A stretch of DNA of 64,000 bases. Source: Lentisphaerota bacterium (lineage in GTDB: Bacteria; Verrucomicrobiota; Kiritimatiellia; JAAZAB01). The notes under the pieces are model-generated. The model did no database searches. It had not been told where the DNA came from and was given only the letters and a program-made list of their open reading frames with translations. Positions 39,467-48,519 of this stretch are shown here, piece by piece; position 1 is the first letter of the stretch; every line of letters starts with the position of its first letter. A program made the translations under genes and the position numbers. The DNA lies in the NCBI GenBank assembly GCA_016188985.1, contig JACPGM010000081.1:1-64000 (forward strand), given 5' to 3'.

Positions 39467-40240
39467 ATGGATAATAATTCCTTAACCGCATTGTTCGGCG
39501 ACGACAGCACCGCGCAGAAAAGCGGCTATGTGATCCGCGCCGTGGAGGTCTGCAAGGTCTTTGCCCTGGGCGAGCATGAAACCCATGCCTTGCGCGGGGC
39601 GACCCTGGACGTGCGCCGCGGCGAATACATCTCGATCATGGGCCCCTCTGGTTCGGGTAAGACCACCCTGTTTAATATGATCGGCGGACTCAACAAGCCG
39701 ACTTCCGGCAAGGTCTACATTGACCAGGTGGATATCGCCCAGCTCGATCCCTATGAGCTGGCCTGGCTGCGCTGCCGCAAGGTGGGCTACGTGTTCCAGT
39801 CGTTCAACCTGATCCAGGTCATGTCCTGCATCGAAAATGTCATGCTGCCGATGGCCTTTGCCGGACTGAGCTCCGAGGACGCGCACGACAAGGCCCGGGA
39901 TATTCTCGCGCTGGTGGGCCTGGGCGACCGCGCCTTGCATAAACCGGCCGAAATGTCGGGCGGCCAGCAACAGCGCGTCGCCATTGCCCGGGCCCTGGCC
40001 AATTCGCCGGATATCATCCTGGCGGATGAACCCACCGGCAACCTGGACCTGAAAACTGGCGAGGAAATCATTGAGCTGTTTGCGCGGCTGCGTGACCAGC
40101 TTGGCGTCACCATCATCACCGCCACCCACGACCTCAAGATGCTCAAGCGCTCGGACCGCATCGTTTGGATCGAGGATGGGCGCATCACCCGGGTCACCAC
40201 CCCGGACGAAATGAAGATCAAGATTGAGGAGATCCATTGA
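39467..40240 (+). CDS. ABC transporter ATP-binding protein (LolD/MacB type)
   Basis: Walker A GPSGSGKTT; signature LSGGQ-like MSGGQQQRVAIARAL; Walker B IILADEPTGNLD. Confidence 0.95.
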   Translation: MDNNSLTALFGDDSTAQKSGYVIRAVEVCKVFALGEHETHALRGATLDVRRGEYISIMGPSGSGKTTLFNMIGGLNKPTSGKVYIDQVDIAQLDPYELAWLRCRKVGYVFQSFNLIQVMSCIENVMLPMAFAGLSSEDAHDKARDILALVGLGDRALHKPAEMSGGQQQRVAIARALANSPDIILADEPTGNLDLKTGEEIIELFARLRDQLGVTIITATHDLKMLKRSDRIVWIEDGRITRVTTPDEMKIKIEEIH

Positions 40241-40978: not shown

Positions 40979-41706
40979 CTACACCCACCCCCGGACGCAA
41001 CGTGATCGCTGCCTCCGTGAACGTAAAGCGCAAGTACCAGCTTGGCCGGGAAACCGTCTGGGCCTTGAACGGCATTACCCTTGACATCTTTGAGGGCGAA
41101 TATCTTTCCATCATGGGTCCCTCCGGCTCGGGCAAATCAACCTTCTTTAACATGATCGGCGCGCTGGATGTGCCCACGGAAGGCACCATCCGCTTCATGG
41201 GCCAGGACCTCTTTAAGTTGCCCGAGGCCAAGCAGGCCTGGGTGCGCTGCAACAAGATCGGTTACATTTTCCAGACCTTCAACCTGGTGGCCGTTATGAC
41301 CGCGCTGGAAAACGTGGCGCTACCCGCCATCCTGCGCGGAGACGCGCCCAACGCGGCTGCGGCTAAAGCCGCCGCCACGCTGGATATCGTCGGCCTGGCT
41401 CATCGCCGGGAGCACCTGCCCGCGCAGCTCTCCGGCGGACAGCAGCAACGCGTCGCTATTGCCCGCGCCCTGGTCAACAGCCCGGCGGTCATTCTGGCGG
41501 ATGAACCCACCGGCAATCTCGACACCAAGACCGGAGCTGAAATCATTGAATTGCTCAAACGCCTGCAGTCGGAGCATGGCGTTACGATCATCACCGCGAC
41601 CCACGACATCAAAATGCTCCAGATCTCCGACCGGATCGTGTGGATCCGCGACGGCCGCATTGAGCGCCTTGAGGAACATGACCGGGTCAAGTTCACCGTC
41701 CATTGA
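40975..41706 (+). CDS. ABC transporter ATP-binding protein (LolD/MacB type)
   Basis: GPSGSGKSTFFNMIGALD; LSGGQQQRVAIARALVNSPAVILADEPTGNLDTKTG. Confidence 0.95.
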   Translation: MTTPTPGRNVIAASVNVKRKYQLGRETVWALNGITLDIFEGEYLSIMGPSGSGKSTFFNMIGALDVPTEGTIRFMGQDLFKLPEAKQAWVRCNKIGYIFQTFNLVAVMTALENVALPAILRGDAPNAAAAKAAATLDIVGLAHRREHLPAQLSGGQQQRVAIARALVNSPAVILADEPTGNLDTKTGAEIIELLKRLQSEHGVTIITATHDIKMLQISDRIVWIRDGRIERLEEHDRVKFTVH

Positions 41707-44561: not shown

Positions 44562-44864
44562 TCACTTGTCCATCGTCTTGAATCCGGCCGGTAGGCTGTT
44601 ACAATCACGGCCGGAGATGTTTGTCCCCTCGGAATCCCCCCAGACCACGTGAATCGGGTTTCCATCGCGGTCCTGTTGCAGGACAAGCACACATGGCCCT
44701 TTCGGAAAGTCCGGATAATCCTCCACTAATCTGCCGTTGGGCACATCTGCCACAATATCCCTGACAAACAGACCTTCTTCGGCTATTCCATCATAGCCGT
44801 GTTCCGATATTCTTATTTTTCCTCTCTGAGCCAGTTGAACGATCCGGCGTAATGTATCACTCAT
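44562..44864 (-). CDS. DUF4258 (RelE-fold/BrnT-like) putative toxin
   Basis: GKIRISEHGYDGIAEEGLFVRDIVADVPNGRLVEDYPDFPKGPCVLVLQQDRDGNPIHVVWG. Confidence 0.7.
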   Translation of the reverse strand: MSDTLRRIVQLAQRGKIRISEHGYDGIAEEGLFVRDIVADVPNGRLVEDYPDFPKGPCVLVLQQDRDGNPIHVVWGDSEGTNISGRDCNSLPAGFKTMDK

Positions 44865-44910
44865 GCCATAATCATAACGTAACAAATATGATTGGCAAAT
44901 CGTTTCTTAT

Positions 44911-44987
44911 GGCCAACACTACTTCTGAGGCGTTCCGAGACCCGTGTCCGCACGGGGCTTGGAATTGCCTCCGGAAGTTTGTTGGGC
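44911..44987 (-). other. attC-like integron recombination site (best example, 77 nt)
   Basis: Minus strand: GCCCAAC-AAACTTCCGGAGGCAATTCCAAGCCCCGTG-CGGA-CACGGGTCTCGGAACGCCTCAGAAGTAGT-GTTGGCC; R'' RYYYAAC exact, R' GTTGGCC, long imperfect stem with bulges; stop codon of the cassette gene lies inside. Confidence 0.75.
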
Positions 44988-45452
44988 TTCGCTTGTACAT
45001 CTGAAAACGTATGTACAGTGGAGATTTGTGCCACCGTCCAGAAAGTACACAGTGACATACTCAGGCGCGTAGTCTCCGGGCTTTGGCTGAAATGGTTGTT
45101 TGTGAAATCCGATGGGTTTGATGACTTCGCCAGATGGAGAGCGCATCTCCGATTTAATGTCTGACGGCAAACCGTTTGTCCAATTGGCAGATTGAAATGC
45201 CTTCTGCGCATACAGTCTCAGCGACGCTGAATTGGTTTTGACGTTTGGCTTGAGTTGATATGTCACATAGACATCACAATGCGAACCGTGAACTGCGACG
45301 GCGCCAATGTGTCGACTGTACATCGAAAGGTCTGGCTCACACTGCCGGAGCAGAGCTTCCTCCTTGATAAAGCGTGCGTTGTCTGGTTCTGTGGCCAAAG
45401 ACACTGTAAGAACAACTGTCCACAACAACAGTACTGTCGTTATCGTTCTCAT
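44919..45452 (-). CDS. Secreted hypothetical protein (cassette gene)
   Basis: MRTITTVLLLWTVVLTVSLATEPDNARFIKEEALLRQCEPDLSMYSRHIGAVAVHGSHCDVYVTYQL. Confidence 0.65.
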   Translation of the reverse strand: MRTITTVLLLWTVVLTVSLATEPDNARFIKEEALLRQCEPDLSMYSRHIGAVAVHGSHCDVYVTYQLKPNVKTNSASLRLYAQKAFQSANWTNGLPSDIKSEMRSPSGEVIKPIGFHKQPFQPKPGDYAPEYVTVYFLDGGTNLHCTYVFRCTSEAQQTSGGNSKPRADTGLGTPQK

Positions 45453-45458
45453 CTTCAA

Positions 45459-45519
45459 ACCCAACGGCGAACTGAGCGCGCGCCGCCTAAGACGGCGCGC
45501 TTGGGTGACGGGCTTAGGC
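45459..45519 (-). other. attC-like site (61 nt, R'' degenerate)
   Basis: Minus strand: GCCTAAGCCCGTCACCCAAGCGCGCCGTCTTAGGCGGCGCGCGCTCAGTTCGCCGTTGGGT; R' GTTGGGT fits GTTRRRY. Confidence 0.55.
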
Positions 45520-45653
45520 GGCTTCCGCCAAAGTTATAGGCGGATGCTACTCTGCGAAGTGGCGAAGCCCCTTCGCTATGACCTTCCTTCGCCCACCGAA
45601 GCGAGGGCTTCGCGAAGGCGGGAGCACGAGTCCGCCTCCGGCATGAAAGCGCC
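45459..45653. repeat. ~190-bp gene-less segment duplicated at 47287-47482, carrying an R1 repeat
   Basis: AACGGCGAACTGAGCGCGCGCCGCCTAAGACGGCGCGCTTG...CACGAGTCCGCCTCCGGCATGAAAGCGCCG in both. Confidence 0.95.
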
Positions 45654-45706
45654 GTTCCCGGCACGCCGCGGGTCAACGGTACGGTGCGACCTCTGGTTCG
45701 ACCTTT

Positions 45707-46192
45707 TTATTTCTTCTTCTGTTGTAATTCTGTTCGGAGTATACGCATGTATTCTTCGTGGGTGTATGTGACCGTCACAGGTTTGCCCTTGTCATCAAGT
45801 CTCCATTCTGAATAGTTTTCCTGAATCGGGCGCATGCCCATCGGCCCTTGAAAGAGCCAATATTCTTTATTCTTATAAGGATCGTGCAGAAAGATAAGAA
45901 AATCTTTTCCAACTAAATCTGCCAATGTCTCTACTTCTAGATGCGCATACATATGGGAACGAAAATCTACCGTAGTTTCACCCTCCCCCTTGAAAAGTTC
46001 TTTAATCTTCGCTTTTATCACACAATATGACATGGGATTAGCGGTATCAGACGGCTTTACAACCTGTGCAACAGTGATTCTCGCAATGACACACGCTCGC
46101 TCCAACTTTTCAGATAGAGTGAACAAGACTGAGGTAGCATGCGTAGTAAATGGGAAAACTAATAATGAAAGTATAAGTATGTTTCTTTTCAT
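45707..46192 (-). CDS. Secreted hypothetical protein (cassette gene)
   Basis: MKRNILILSLLVFPFTTHATSVLFTLSEKLERACVIARITVAQVVKPSDTANPMSYCVIKAKIKELFKGE. Confidence 0.65.
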   Translation of the reverse strand: MKRNILILSLLVFPFTTHATSVLFTLSEKLERACVIARITVAQVVKPSDTANPMSYCVIKAKIKELFKGEGETTVDFRSHMYAHLEVETLADLVGKDFLIFLHDPYKNKEYWLFQGPMGMRPIQENYSEWRLDDKGKPVTVTYTHEEYMRILRTELQQKKK

Positions 46193-46200
46193 GTCTTTGG

Positions 46201-46267
46201 GTCTAACGGCATGAGTCACGGTTTTGGCGCGATAGCGACAAATACCGTGCGCTCATTTGTGCGCAAC
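46201..46267 (-). other. attC-like site (~67 nt)
   Basis: Minus strand ends ...GCCAAAACCGTGACTCATGCC-GTTAGAC (R' exact GTTRRRY); stem GAGcgCACGGTaTTTGtcGC / GCgcCAAAaCCGTGaCTC; R'' degenerate. Confidence 0.6.
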
Positions 46268-46306
46268 TCTTCCATACTTCAACAATTGTGGAAATGAGGA
46301 AGACAA

Positions 46307-46624
46307 TCACGCGCGCTTCGCGCGCACGCTCTCCACCCATTCCTCAACCGTGATGAGAATTCTCAGTACCTTGCGATCCTTTATCCAATACTCTTTGGTC
46401 CTACCCTTGGTCTCGTATCGAATCACATCCATCTGCCGAAGATGACGCAAGGTCATGGAAATCGTCGTCAGGGGGATATGCAAGGCAGTGCTCAGATCGC
46501 CGGGGGTCTTGCGGCTTGTGTCCAGGCAGCGCAGGATGAGATAGGCCGTCGGATTCCCCAGAACTCGACAACACCGTGAAGCCCGGTACATCGTCTCCGG
46601 CATATTCTGTTTCGTTATTCCCAT
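46307..46624 (-). CDS. ArsR-like winged-helix transcriptional regulator
   Basis: ASRCCRVLGNPTAYLILRCLDTSRKTPGDLSTALHIPLTTISMTLRHLRQMDVIRYETKGRTKEYWIKD. Confidence 0.8.
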   Translation of the reverse strand: MGITKQNMPETMYRASRCCRVLGNPTAYLILRCLDTSRKTPGDLSTALHIPLTTISMTLRHLRQMDVIRYETKGRTKEYWIKDRKVLRILITVEEWVESVRAKRA

Positions 46625-46645
46625 AACCCCCCGCCACCTCCACTA

Positions 46646-46677
46646 TTCCACACTTCAACAATTGTGGAAGTGTGGAA
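46646..46677. promoter_or_regulatory. 32-bp palindromic putative operator upstream of the ArsR-like gene; diverged second copy at 46270-46301
   Basis: TTCCACACTTCAACAATTGTGGAAGTGTGGAA (one mismatched pair). Confidence 0.6.
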
Positions 46678-46699
46678 GGTTCTTGTCAAGTCAGCCTAT

Positions 46700-46755
46700 T
46701 GCGAACGATTGAGCTAAAGCGCGGTTCACCGCGCGCCTTCAGCTTCTTGTTCGGT
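46700..46755 (-). other. attC-like site (56 nt)
   Basis: Minus strand: ACCGAAC-AAGAAGCTGAAGGCGCGCGG-TGAA-CCGCGCTTTAGCTCAATC-GTTCGCA; CGAAC/GTTCG pair, bulged stem; cassette stop codon inside. Confidence 0.65.
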
Positions 46756-47274
46756 AATCTCTTGTTTTCTGATTGCCCTTGGCAGAGACACCGCCATCAA
46801 GCTGCCGACTGTGAAAAAGAGCAATCCAAATCCCGGAAGGAACCATGATTGTCCTTTCAGTCCGGGCTCTAACAAACACTCCTCCGGGTTGCCTGGCAGG
46901 TAATACACGGTAACGCTCTTGCCTTTGGGATATCGGTTTACGATGCGCCGCGCATGCGACGGATTGCTGGAGCCATAGTCTCCGTAGGCAACACGATTAC
47001 CGCTGAAAGTAGTGTCGTTGACACTGAAGTCATACATGACTTCGGCGTGATAGGTGCCACTCCCCTCATCACTATCCTGATACTCTACTGAAGATGCCAC
47101 AACTCTGCCTTGAGTAGCGGGCCAATCCACACTGGCCTTAGCTCGGATGAGGCCACGAACACCAAAGAAGGCAACGCTTGCGCCAACCACGACAAAGATG
47201 AGTGGAAAAATCCGTGAGAAGAAGAATCTCATTCCCGGGGACATTTGCTTTGACGATGATGAAGATATTCTCAT
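46726..47274 (-). CDS. DUF3592 domain membrane protein (cassette gene)
   Basis: GRVVASSVEYQDSDEGSGTYHAEVMYDFSVNDTTFSGNRVAYGD...RYPKGKSVTVYYLPGNPEECLLEPG. Confidence 0.8.
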   Translation of the reverse strand: MRISSSSSKQMSPGMRFFFSRIFPLIFVVVGASVAFFGVRGLIRAKASVDWPATQGRVVASSVEYQDSDEGSGTYHAEVMYDFSVNDTTFSGNRVAYGDYGSSNPSHARRIVNRYPKGKSVTVYYLPGNPEECLLEPGLKGQSWFLPGFGLLFFTVGSLMAVSLPRAIRKQEITEQEAEGAR

Positions 47275-47286
47275 TATTCTCCTTTC

Positions 47287-47347
47287 ACGGAACGGCGAAC
47301 TGAGCGCGCGCCGCCTAAGACGGCGCGCTTGCACGACTTGCTTAGGC
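47287..47347 (-). other. attC-like site, duplicate of 45459-45519 with different R'
   Basis: Minus strand: GCCTAAGCAAGTCGTGCAAGCGCGCCGTCTTAGGCGGCGCGCGCTCAGTTCGCCGTTCCGT; homology between the two copies breaks right after GTT. Confidence 0.5.
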
Positions 47348-47489
47348 GGCTTCCGCCAAAGTTATAGGCGGATGCTACTCTGCGAAGTGGCGAAGCCCCT
47401 TCGCTATGACCTTCCTTCGCCCACCGAAGCGAGGGCTTCGCGAAGGCGGGAGCACGAGTCCGCCTCCGGCATGAAAGCGCCGGGCGTGT

Positions 47490-47549
47490 CGGAAACGTGA
47501 CGGTTCAGCTACCGAGCGGGGCGAGGTAGGCTGAAACCGGTGGTTAGGC
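47490..47549 (-). other. attC-like site (60 nt) after BrnA-like gene
   Basis: Minus strand: GCCTAAC-CACC-GGTTTCAGCCTACC-TCGCCCCGCTC-GGTAGCTGAACC-GTCAC-GTTTCCG; R'' exact, stem with extrahelical bases, R' degenerate after GTT. Confidence 0.6.
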
Positions 47550-47828
47550 ATTTCTTCTTTCTCTCAGCACGCCGCGAAGATATTTATGCAAGATGCTCGA
47601 AATCAGCGTTTGATAGGGCAGGCCCTCCTCGATCGCCTTGGTTTGGATGCCAACCAGATCGCGTTCCGCCAAGCGGATGTTTATCCGCTTGTTTTTCTGG
47701 AGAGTATTACGGGAATACTGCTGCAATTTGGCGATTTCCGACCTTCCGTTTCTTGCCGGACGCCATTCGTTACGCTCGTATGACGCCAGTATGTCTCTTT
47801 CTTCCGAATCCATTGTCTGCTTTTTCAT
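47544..47828 (-). CDS. BrnA/CopG-type antitoxin
   Basis: KNKRINIRLAERDLVGIQTKAIEEGLPYQTLISSILHKYLRG. Confidence 0.8.
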   Translation of the reverse strand: MKKQTMDSEERDILASYERNEWRPARNGRSEIAKLQQYSRNTLQKNKRINIRLAERDLVGIQTKAIEEGLPYQTLISSILHKYLRGVLRERRNA

Positions 47829-48103
47829 TTTCCCCTCCTCAAATATTTCTTCGTCGCTTTTCGGCTCGGAATAATTGTTTTCAGAAAAACACCTTCTTCA
47901 TCGTCCACATAAGGGACGAGGCAGGCGTATTCATCTATTTCGACTATCGCCATCTTTTGTCTGGGATATTTTCTTTGGTCAGGGTGATCCATAACTTCCA
48001 AGACTTGCCCTTGCTCGAACAGAACGGCGACTTGTTCAAATCCCACTCCGCGATTCTGTTTTAACCATTCATTTTTCCGTTCATCCCACCGGATGTTTTT
48101 CAT
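47825..48103 (-). CDS. BrnT-like toxin
   Basis: MKNIRWDERKNEWLKQNRGVGFEQVAVLFEQGQVLEVMDHPDQRKYPRQKMAIVEIDEYACLVPYVDDEEGVFLKTIIPSRKATKKYLRRGK; overlaps the antitoxin start. Confidence 0.8.
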   Translation of the reverse strand: MKNIRWDERKNEWLKQNRGVGFEQVAVLFEQGQVLEVMDHPDQRKYPRQKMAIVEIDEYACLVPYVDDEEGVFLKTIIPSRKATKKYLRRGK

Positions 48104-48133
48104 AAGGACAATATACGGCATAGTATGCCGTTT

Positions 48134-48189
48134 GTCAACACATCGGCTTCATTCGTCTTCACTTATTTTCTGCCGAACATGTGTTAGAC
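48134..48189 (-). other. attC-like hairpin upstream of the BrnT/BrnA cassette (56 nt)
   Basis: Minus strand: GTCTAAC-ACATgttCGGC-...-GCCGATGT-GTTGAC; R'' exact. Confidence 0.45.
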
Positions 48190-48191
48190 GT

Positions 48192-48217
48192 AATTATCAT
48201 ATTGCAATATGATAATT
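48192..48217. repeat. 26-bp perfect AT-rich palindrome AATTATCATATTGCAATATGATAATT
   Basis: Direct reading; 2 nt from the GTTAGAC box. Confidence 0.9.
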
Positions 48218-48519
48218 CTAGATAGTATAAACAATGGGCAGAAACAATAATTGCCTTTTTTAAAATCGTATGTCTGGTTTTGATGAAGGTCAACGATAAA
48301 ACAACGGAAAATTTCTGGCAGGCCTGCCAATCCTGCGTGAAAACGCAACGCGTCACCACCGCTCATGCTCTTATAAAGCTGTGAAACAATAGAAAATCAT
48401 CGCGCCGGCGGGGCGGCGCTCCTACAAAAACCCATGATAGACGGGAAAATGTAGGAACCGAGCCCCACCTCGGCGATCTTCGGCAATTTTTTCACGCGTT
48501 CTCAGTAAGAATACGGCTC

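Follow-up and report, generated by a model that had tools for sequence, protein, structure and literature searches.

Two gene-less slots of a chromosomal integron array in a Lentisphaerota bacterium probably represent one duplicated cassette

A chromosomal integron cassette array is located at 44.9-48.2 kb of the 64,000-nucleotide stretch of Lentisphaerota DNA that was analysed (contig JACPGM010000081.1, positions 1 to 64,000; hereafter the window) and carries two near-identical segments. These copies are probably two slots of a single gene-less cassette, in which the shared 192 bp would correspond to an attC site preceded by nested palindromic repeats. The cassette is proposed to have been copied to a second array position by integrase-driven attC recombination, which, as judged from the boundaries only, would have set its 3′ end at G^TT. 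The intact integron integrase encoded on contig C80 of the same genome could have acted in trans, or the local one, since lost, may have done so earlier. With less certainty, the leader between the opening GTT and the shared block may have been flipped in one copy, between ends at G^TT and AA^C, with the loss of about 9 nt; the 5′ ends would then no longer match directly because of this flip and loss. The setting is a draft genome of 173 contigs, related to the Kiritimatiellota, in which the repeats are short and near-identical.

The integron array

The array begins at an attI-like site adjoining a truncated intI gene (Table 1). The window region at about 48165-48310 aligns with the region upstream of the intI start on contig C105 (73%), and part of it also aligns with C80. 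Such attI-like regions were compared from C80, C105, the window and two relatives; all five are alike as far as AAC/GTT and diverge from there on, as expected of attI. No full integrase gene lies beside the window array, which is an attI-bearing array without its own integrase, while the intact integrase on C80 (7882-8820) matches TIGR02249 with 457 bits against a cut-off of 265. From the attI-like site toward lower coordinates, eight GTT boundaries are found and all cassette genes are on the minus strand, in the order BrnT/CopG, gene-less slot 2, DUF3592, ArsR-like HTH, 170-aa frame, gene-less slot 6, 181-aa frame and DUF4258. These slot boundaries are supported by the pairing of R″ with the cassette's own start, which in 11 ordinary cassettes of this genome holds at 6-7 of 7 positions and beyond them at only 1-2 of 7; none of 100,000 partner permutations gave an outer-base fit between R″ and start as good as the one observed.

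In addition to the intact integron on C80, cassettes are attached at two places to an attI-like platform in which the start of intI is truncated (window 48150-48390; C105 1107-1255), and these two platforms resemble each other more than they resemble C80. A palindromic motif, TTCCACACTTCAACAATTGTGGAAGTGTGGAA (89% alike), flanks the ArsR-like HTH gene on both sides (46266-46302, 46642-46678) and is perhaps a candidate operator of this gene. Elsewhere in the window, a 179-nt direct repeat, 75% alike, lies inside two neighbouring plus-strand genes (40007-40185, 41482-41660). No paper on integrons in Kiritimatiell* was found in the collection of literature searched, and this group therefore seems little studied.

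Table 1. Coordinates of the array features in the window
Feature	Position	Strand	Basis or match
DUF4258 gene, last cassette recognised	44562..44885	-	
Cassette with 181-aa frame; clean attC at 44911-44987	44918..45464	-	
attC module, copy 1 (R″ candidate GCCTAAG ... R′ GTTGGGT)	45459..45522	-	C105:645-706 at 90%; 3′ half in G003
Shared block, copy 1 (192 bp, from C of AAC to GTT)	45463..45654	-	pairwise alignment
Gene-less cassette slot 6 (G^TT to G^TT, 212 nt)	45465..45676	-	GTT positions
R0 with R1 nested in its centre, copy 1	45523..45648	-	R0 alone and R1 alone elsewhere
Leader arm, copy 1, GGCGTGCCGGGAAC, ends at AAC	45654..45667	-	
Cassette with 170-aa frame, attC very short	45678..46206	-	
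ArsR-like HTH cassette	46208..46705	-	
DUF3592 cassette	46707..47292	-	
attC module, copy 2 (R′ GTTCCGT)	47287..47350	-	
Shared block, copy 2 (192 bp, 5 differences)	47291..47482	-	pairwise alignment
Gene-less cassette slot 2 (G^TT to G^TT, 203 nt)	47293..47495	-	GTT positions
R0 with R1 nested, copy 2, 100% identical to copy 1	47351..47476	-	
Leader arm, copy 2, GTTTCCGACACGCC, starts at GTT	47483..47496	-	
attC of BrnT/CopG cassette (GCCTAAC ... GTTTCCG)	47490..47549	-	
First cassette: BrnT toxin and CopG-like antitoxin	47544..48121	-	
attI-like region; first cassette joined at G 48178	48178..48300	+	alignment with other attI-like regions
intI remnant, first ~33 codons	48283..48384	+	41% over 29 aa to C80 integrase

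The shared block and its ends

The original prediction described about 190 bp as near-identical at 45459-45653 and 47287-47482, and the alignment bears this out, being gap-free over 192 bp with 97.4% identity. Also as predicted, both copies finish on the minus strand with ...GCGCTCAGTTCGCCGTT, followed by GGGTTTGAAG and CCGTGAAAGG, respectively; the terminus common to both reads ...TTCGCCGTT, beyond which the sequences differ. The R1 repeat expected in each copy was found in both. The absence of an ORF was likewise confirmed, in that no ORF is conserved across the two copies and a 73-aa frame starting with TTG overlaps copy 1 but not copy 2; the shared block probably encodes nothing. The five differences between the copies are all confined to 8 bp of the attC 5′ arm (block positions 144-151). 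Five random changes in 192 bp would be so clustered with a probability of about 3e-6 (hand calculation), and this confinement suggests that the patch is probably the trace of one event.

Alignment of the copies places the 3′ breakpoint at GTT in both and the 5′ breakpoint at (C)GGCGC. The 5′ homology thus sets in short of the GTT that opens the cassette slot, after 22 nt in copy 1 and 13 nt in copy 2, and the sequences differ to the left of this onset. Therefore, the block is no plain GTT-to-GTT duplicate: compared with an ORF-free segment duplicated from GTT to GTT, the window copies agree at the 3′ end and not at the 5′ end. The claim that a gene-less cassette was duplicated by attC x attC recombination consequently stands in part, agreeing with the array, the attI-like site, the intI remnant, the attC sites, the full integrase of the genome and the 3′ GTT end, but not with a 5′ homology that stops short of the opening GTT.

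An attC site joined to dispersed palindromic repeats

The last ~62 bp of the shared block read as an attC site, and the preceding 126 bp are repeats. A third attC of the same type is found on C105, where it follows the gene of another cassette and precedes a toxin-antitoxin-like cassette; in this site and in both window copies, the homology stops at GTT and the sequence beyond differs. The C105 attC has an R″ complementarity of 6/7, while the R″ candidate GCCTAAG of the window copies pairs with the slot's own start at 1/4 and 0/4 outer bases. Folded alone, the attC modules are no better than shuffled sequences (z -0.8 and -0.4). A simple R″..R′ scan picked up the attC sites of C80 and a single clean attC in the window, and missed the attC of both copies, in which R″ reads AAG. 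Among named genomes, the attC pattern search returned one record of this type, a Kiritimatiellaeota bacterium from Lac Pavin; the pattern gave no match in viral contigs, and the shared block none in plasmids. The mixed attC alignment is of poor quality.

R0 and R1 are nested dispersed palindromes that account for two thirds of the segment and lie directly on the R″ side of attC. R0, approximately TTTCATGCCNNAGGC(A/G)GATCCGCCTCNGGCGGAAA, gave 20 pattern matches against 1 for the control, all such repeat counts being lower bounds, and it occurs alone at many places. R1, CTCGTGCT..CTTCGCAGAGTAGCAT, sits in the centre of R0; it is found at many non-cassette sites in this genome and in other members of the family, and was not found in the other families searched. 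Because of these many non-cassette sites, R1 is no cassette part as such and is a passenger, both palindromes most likely being genome-wide repeats that the attC brought along. The original prediction named occurrence of the segment outside any cassette context as evidence against it, and for the R0/R1 part, which is present at many places without attC, this evidence was obtained. The attC module, in contrast, recurs on C105, with its 3′ half in G003, a genome of the same genus, and was found only at these cassette boundaries and those of the window.

A cleaner case is provided by a gene-less cassette of about 310 bp that is present at three loci of the same genome (C80:7070-7393, where it is the first after attI, C80:5509-5821 and C25:1282-1627) and partially in a relative (G004, C217). 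All of these open with GTTCGC and the three own-genome copies close at GTT, which makes them ORF-free duplicates from GTT to GTT, with different neighbours among the loci. The body of this cassette consists of dispersed repeats that also occur elsewhere without attC (C116, C124, C37, C24). R0 is present in the C25 copy and absent from the C80 copies, which shows insertion of R0 into a gene-less cassette. Set beside the window copies, this case indicates that gene-less cassettes built from dispersed repeats recur in the genome.

The 5′ leaders

Upstream of the block, copy 2 opens with G^TTTCCGACACGCC, and copy 1 opens with G^TTGACCCGC followed by GGCGTGCCGGGAA^C. The 14-nt leader arms are reverse complements of each other at 12 of 14 positions, the unshared leader thus being inverted between the copies. 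In copy 2 the start of the leader coincides with G^TT, and in copy 1 its end coincides with AA^C, these being the crossover points of R′ and R″, respectively. This match was first noticed by inspection. In a position-bound test, 27 of 100,000 GC-matched random pairs were as good, while a position-free test with a harsher mismatch penalty was not significant (2168/20,000). Beyond the R box, the arms match at 6/7 positions, against 1-2/7 in ordinary cassettes. When the attC is stripped of R0/R1 and joined with the arm of copy 1 and the start of copy 2, a long hairpin forms (z -4.5, with arms chosen afterwards), which 6 of 3000 random arms equalled. When R0/R1 was taken out of copy 1 with no part of copy 2 added, a hairpin was not clearly regained, random arms being as good in 131/3000 cases with 13 nt and in 603/3000 with 19 nt.

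The two 5′ forms would be interconverted by a single inversion spanning the leader from G^TT to AA^C, together with the loss of about 9 nt. One conceivable mechanism, which we consider doubtful, is that the palindromic repeat in the 5′ arm of attC removed strand polarity, with the integrase then cutting not only at R′ (G^TT) but also at R″ (AA^C) and flipping the leader between them. A shift of recombination to R″ has been described in an attC mutant devoid of extrahelical bases (PMC2727003), and such a flip would be a natural case of it. If confirmed, it would reveal the use of R″ outside the laboratory.

Origin of the two copies

Altogether, duplication of one gene-less cassette is favoured by the C80 integrase, the attI-like regions, the R″/start pairing, the recurrence of the attC on C105, the three-locus gene-less cassette and the inverted leader arms. 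Against it stand the 5′ homology short of GTT, the failure of GCCTAAG to pair with its own start, the weak fold of the attC module, a leader match found by inspection, the extra loss of about 9 nt and a draft assembly with short repeats.

Rather unlikely, the block might instead be the 3′ tail of a larger gene-bearing cassette that was duplicated, each copy then having deleted the gene and kept a different short leader. Palindrome-rich DNA is generally known to be prone to deletion, and the mismatch between R″ and start within either slot looks as if the original 5′ part were gone; however, two deletions ending at the same base next to R0 would be needed, and the inverted leader copies are not predicted. 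It is improbable that ordinary homologous recombination, gene conversion or template switching, rather than an integrase, gave rise to the second copy of the block, its GTT end then being simply where the likeness of the attC sites happens to stop. The 5′ end of the block is indeed no cassette boundary, same-type attC sites are alike up to GTT anyway, and the five clustered differences look like a single patch, yet neither side offers a shared flank of any length to guide the exchange, and the other gene-less cassette of the genome moved from GTT to GTT. Independent insertion of R0/R1 beside two same-type attC sites, for which the R0 insertion into the C25 cassette and its absence from both C80 copies offer a precedent, is highly improbable and was rejected on the 100% identity of the 126 bp between the two copies, the best other R1 match in the genome being 97% over about 66 bp.

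Relation to known elements

The duplicated cassette proposed here appears to be mostly of a known kind, since repeated non-coding cassettes have been described in Vibrio. In six Vibrio arrays, 6-49% of the cassettes are non-coding, and many of them are paralogous (Boucher et al. 2006, PMC1382264). These paralogous cassettes of chromosomal integrons resemble the window copies in that they have no ORF, occur more than once per array and show homology that stops at cassette boundaries. Unlike the present case, they are without homologs outside cassettes, whereas here genome-wide dispersed repeats make up the bodies, and the two window copies have unlike 5′ ends. As in integron attC sites (Bouvier et al. 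2009, PMC2727003), the attC of the block lies at the 3′ end of the cassette, ends at the GTT crossover and is found behind different genes; in contrast to the usual attC, its R″ reads AAG and fails to pair with the start of its own slot, and its R″ side directly adjoins a 126-bp repeat. What is unusual here is the cassette body made of dispersed repeats and, possibly, a flip of the leader whose two ends coincide with the R boxes. Some integrons are rich in non-coding cassettes, and how these arise and what they are used for are open questions. In this genome, two families of such cassettes have bodies that consist of ordinary genome-wide palindromic repeats, which suggests one concrete route of origin, namely that non-coding cassettes arise by repeats landing in or beside attC sites.

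Being short, palindromic, mostly intergenic and present in many copies, R0 and R1 are similar to REP-like and other dispersed palindromic repeats. Y1-transposase-like genes are present in the genome; no link between a REP transposase and R0/R1 was established, and neither repeat lies near the intact Y1-like gene on C159. One R0 copy (C109, 1422-1455) lies about 450 bp from a fragment of a Y1-transposase-like gene at the contig end. On C1 (about 1501-1593), an R1 repeat lies in frame within the gene of a large PQQ-repeat-like protein (552+ aa); it contributes no stop codon and directly follows the signal-peptide-like start, an arrangement somewhat reminiscent of the gene-internal palindromic elements of Rickettsia.
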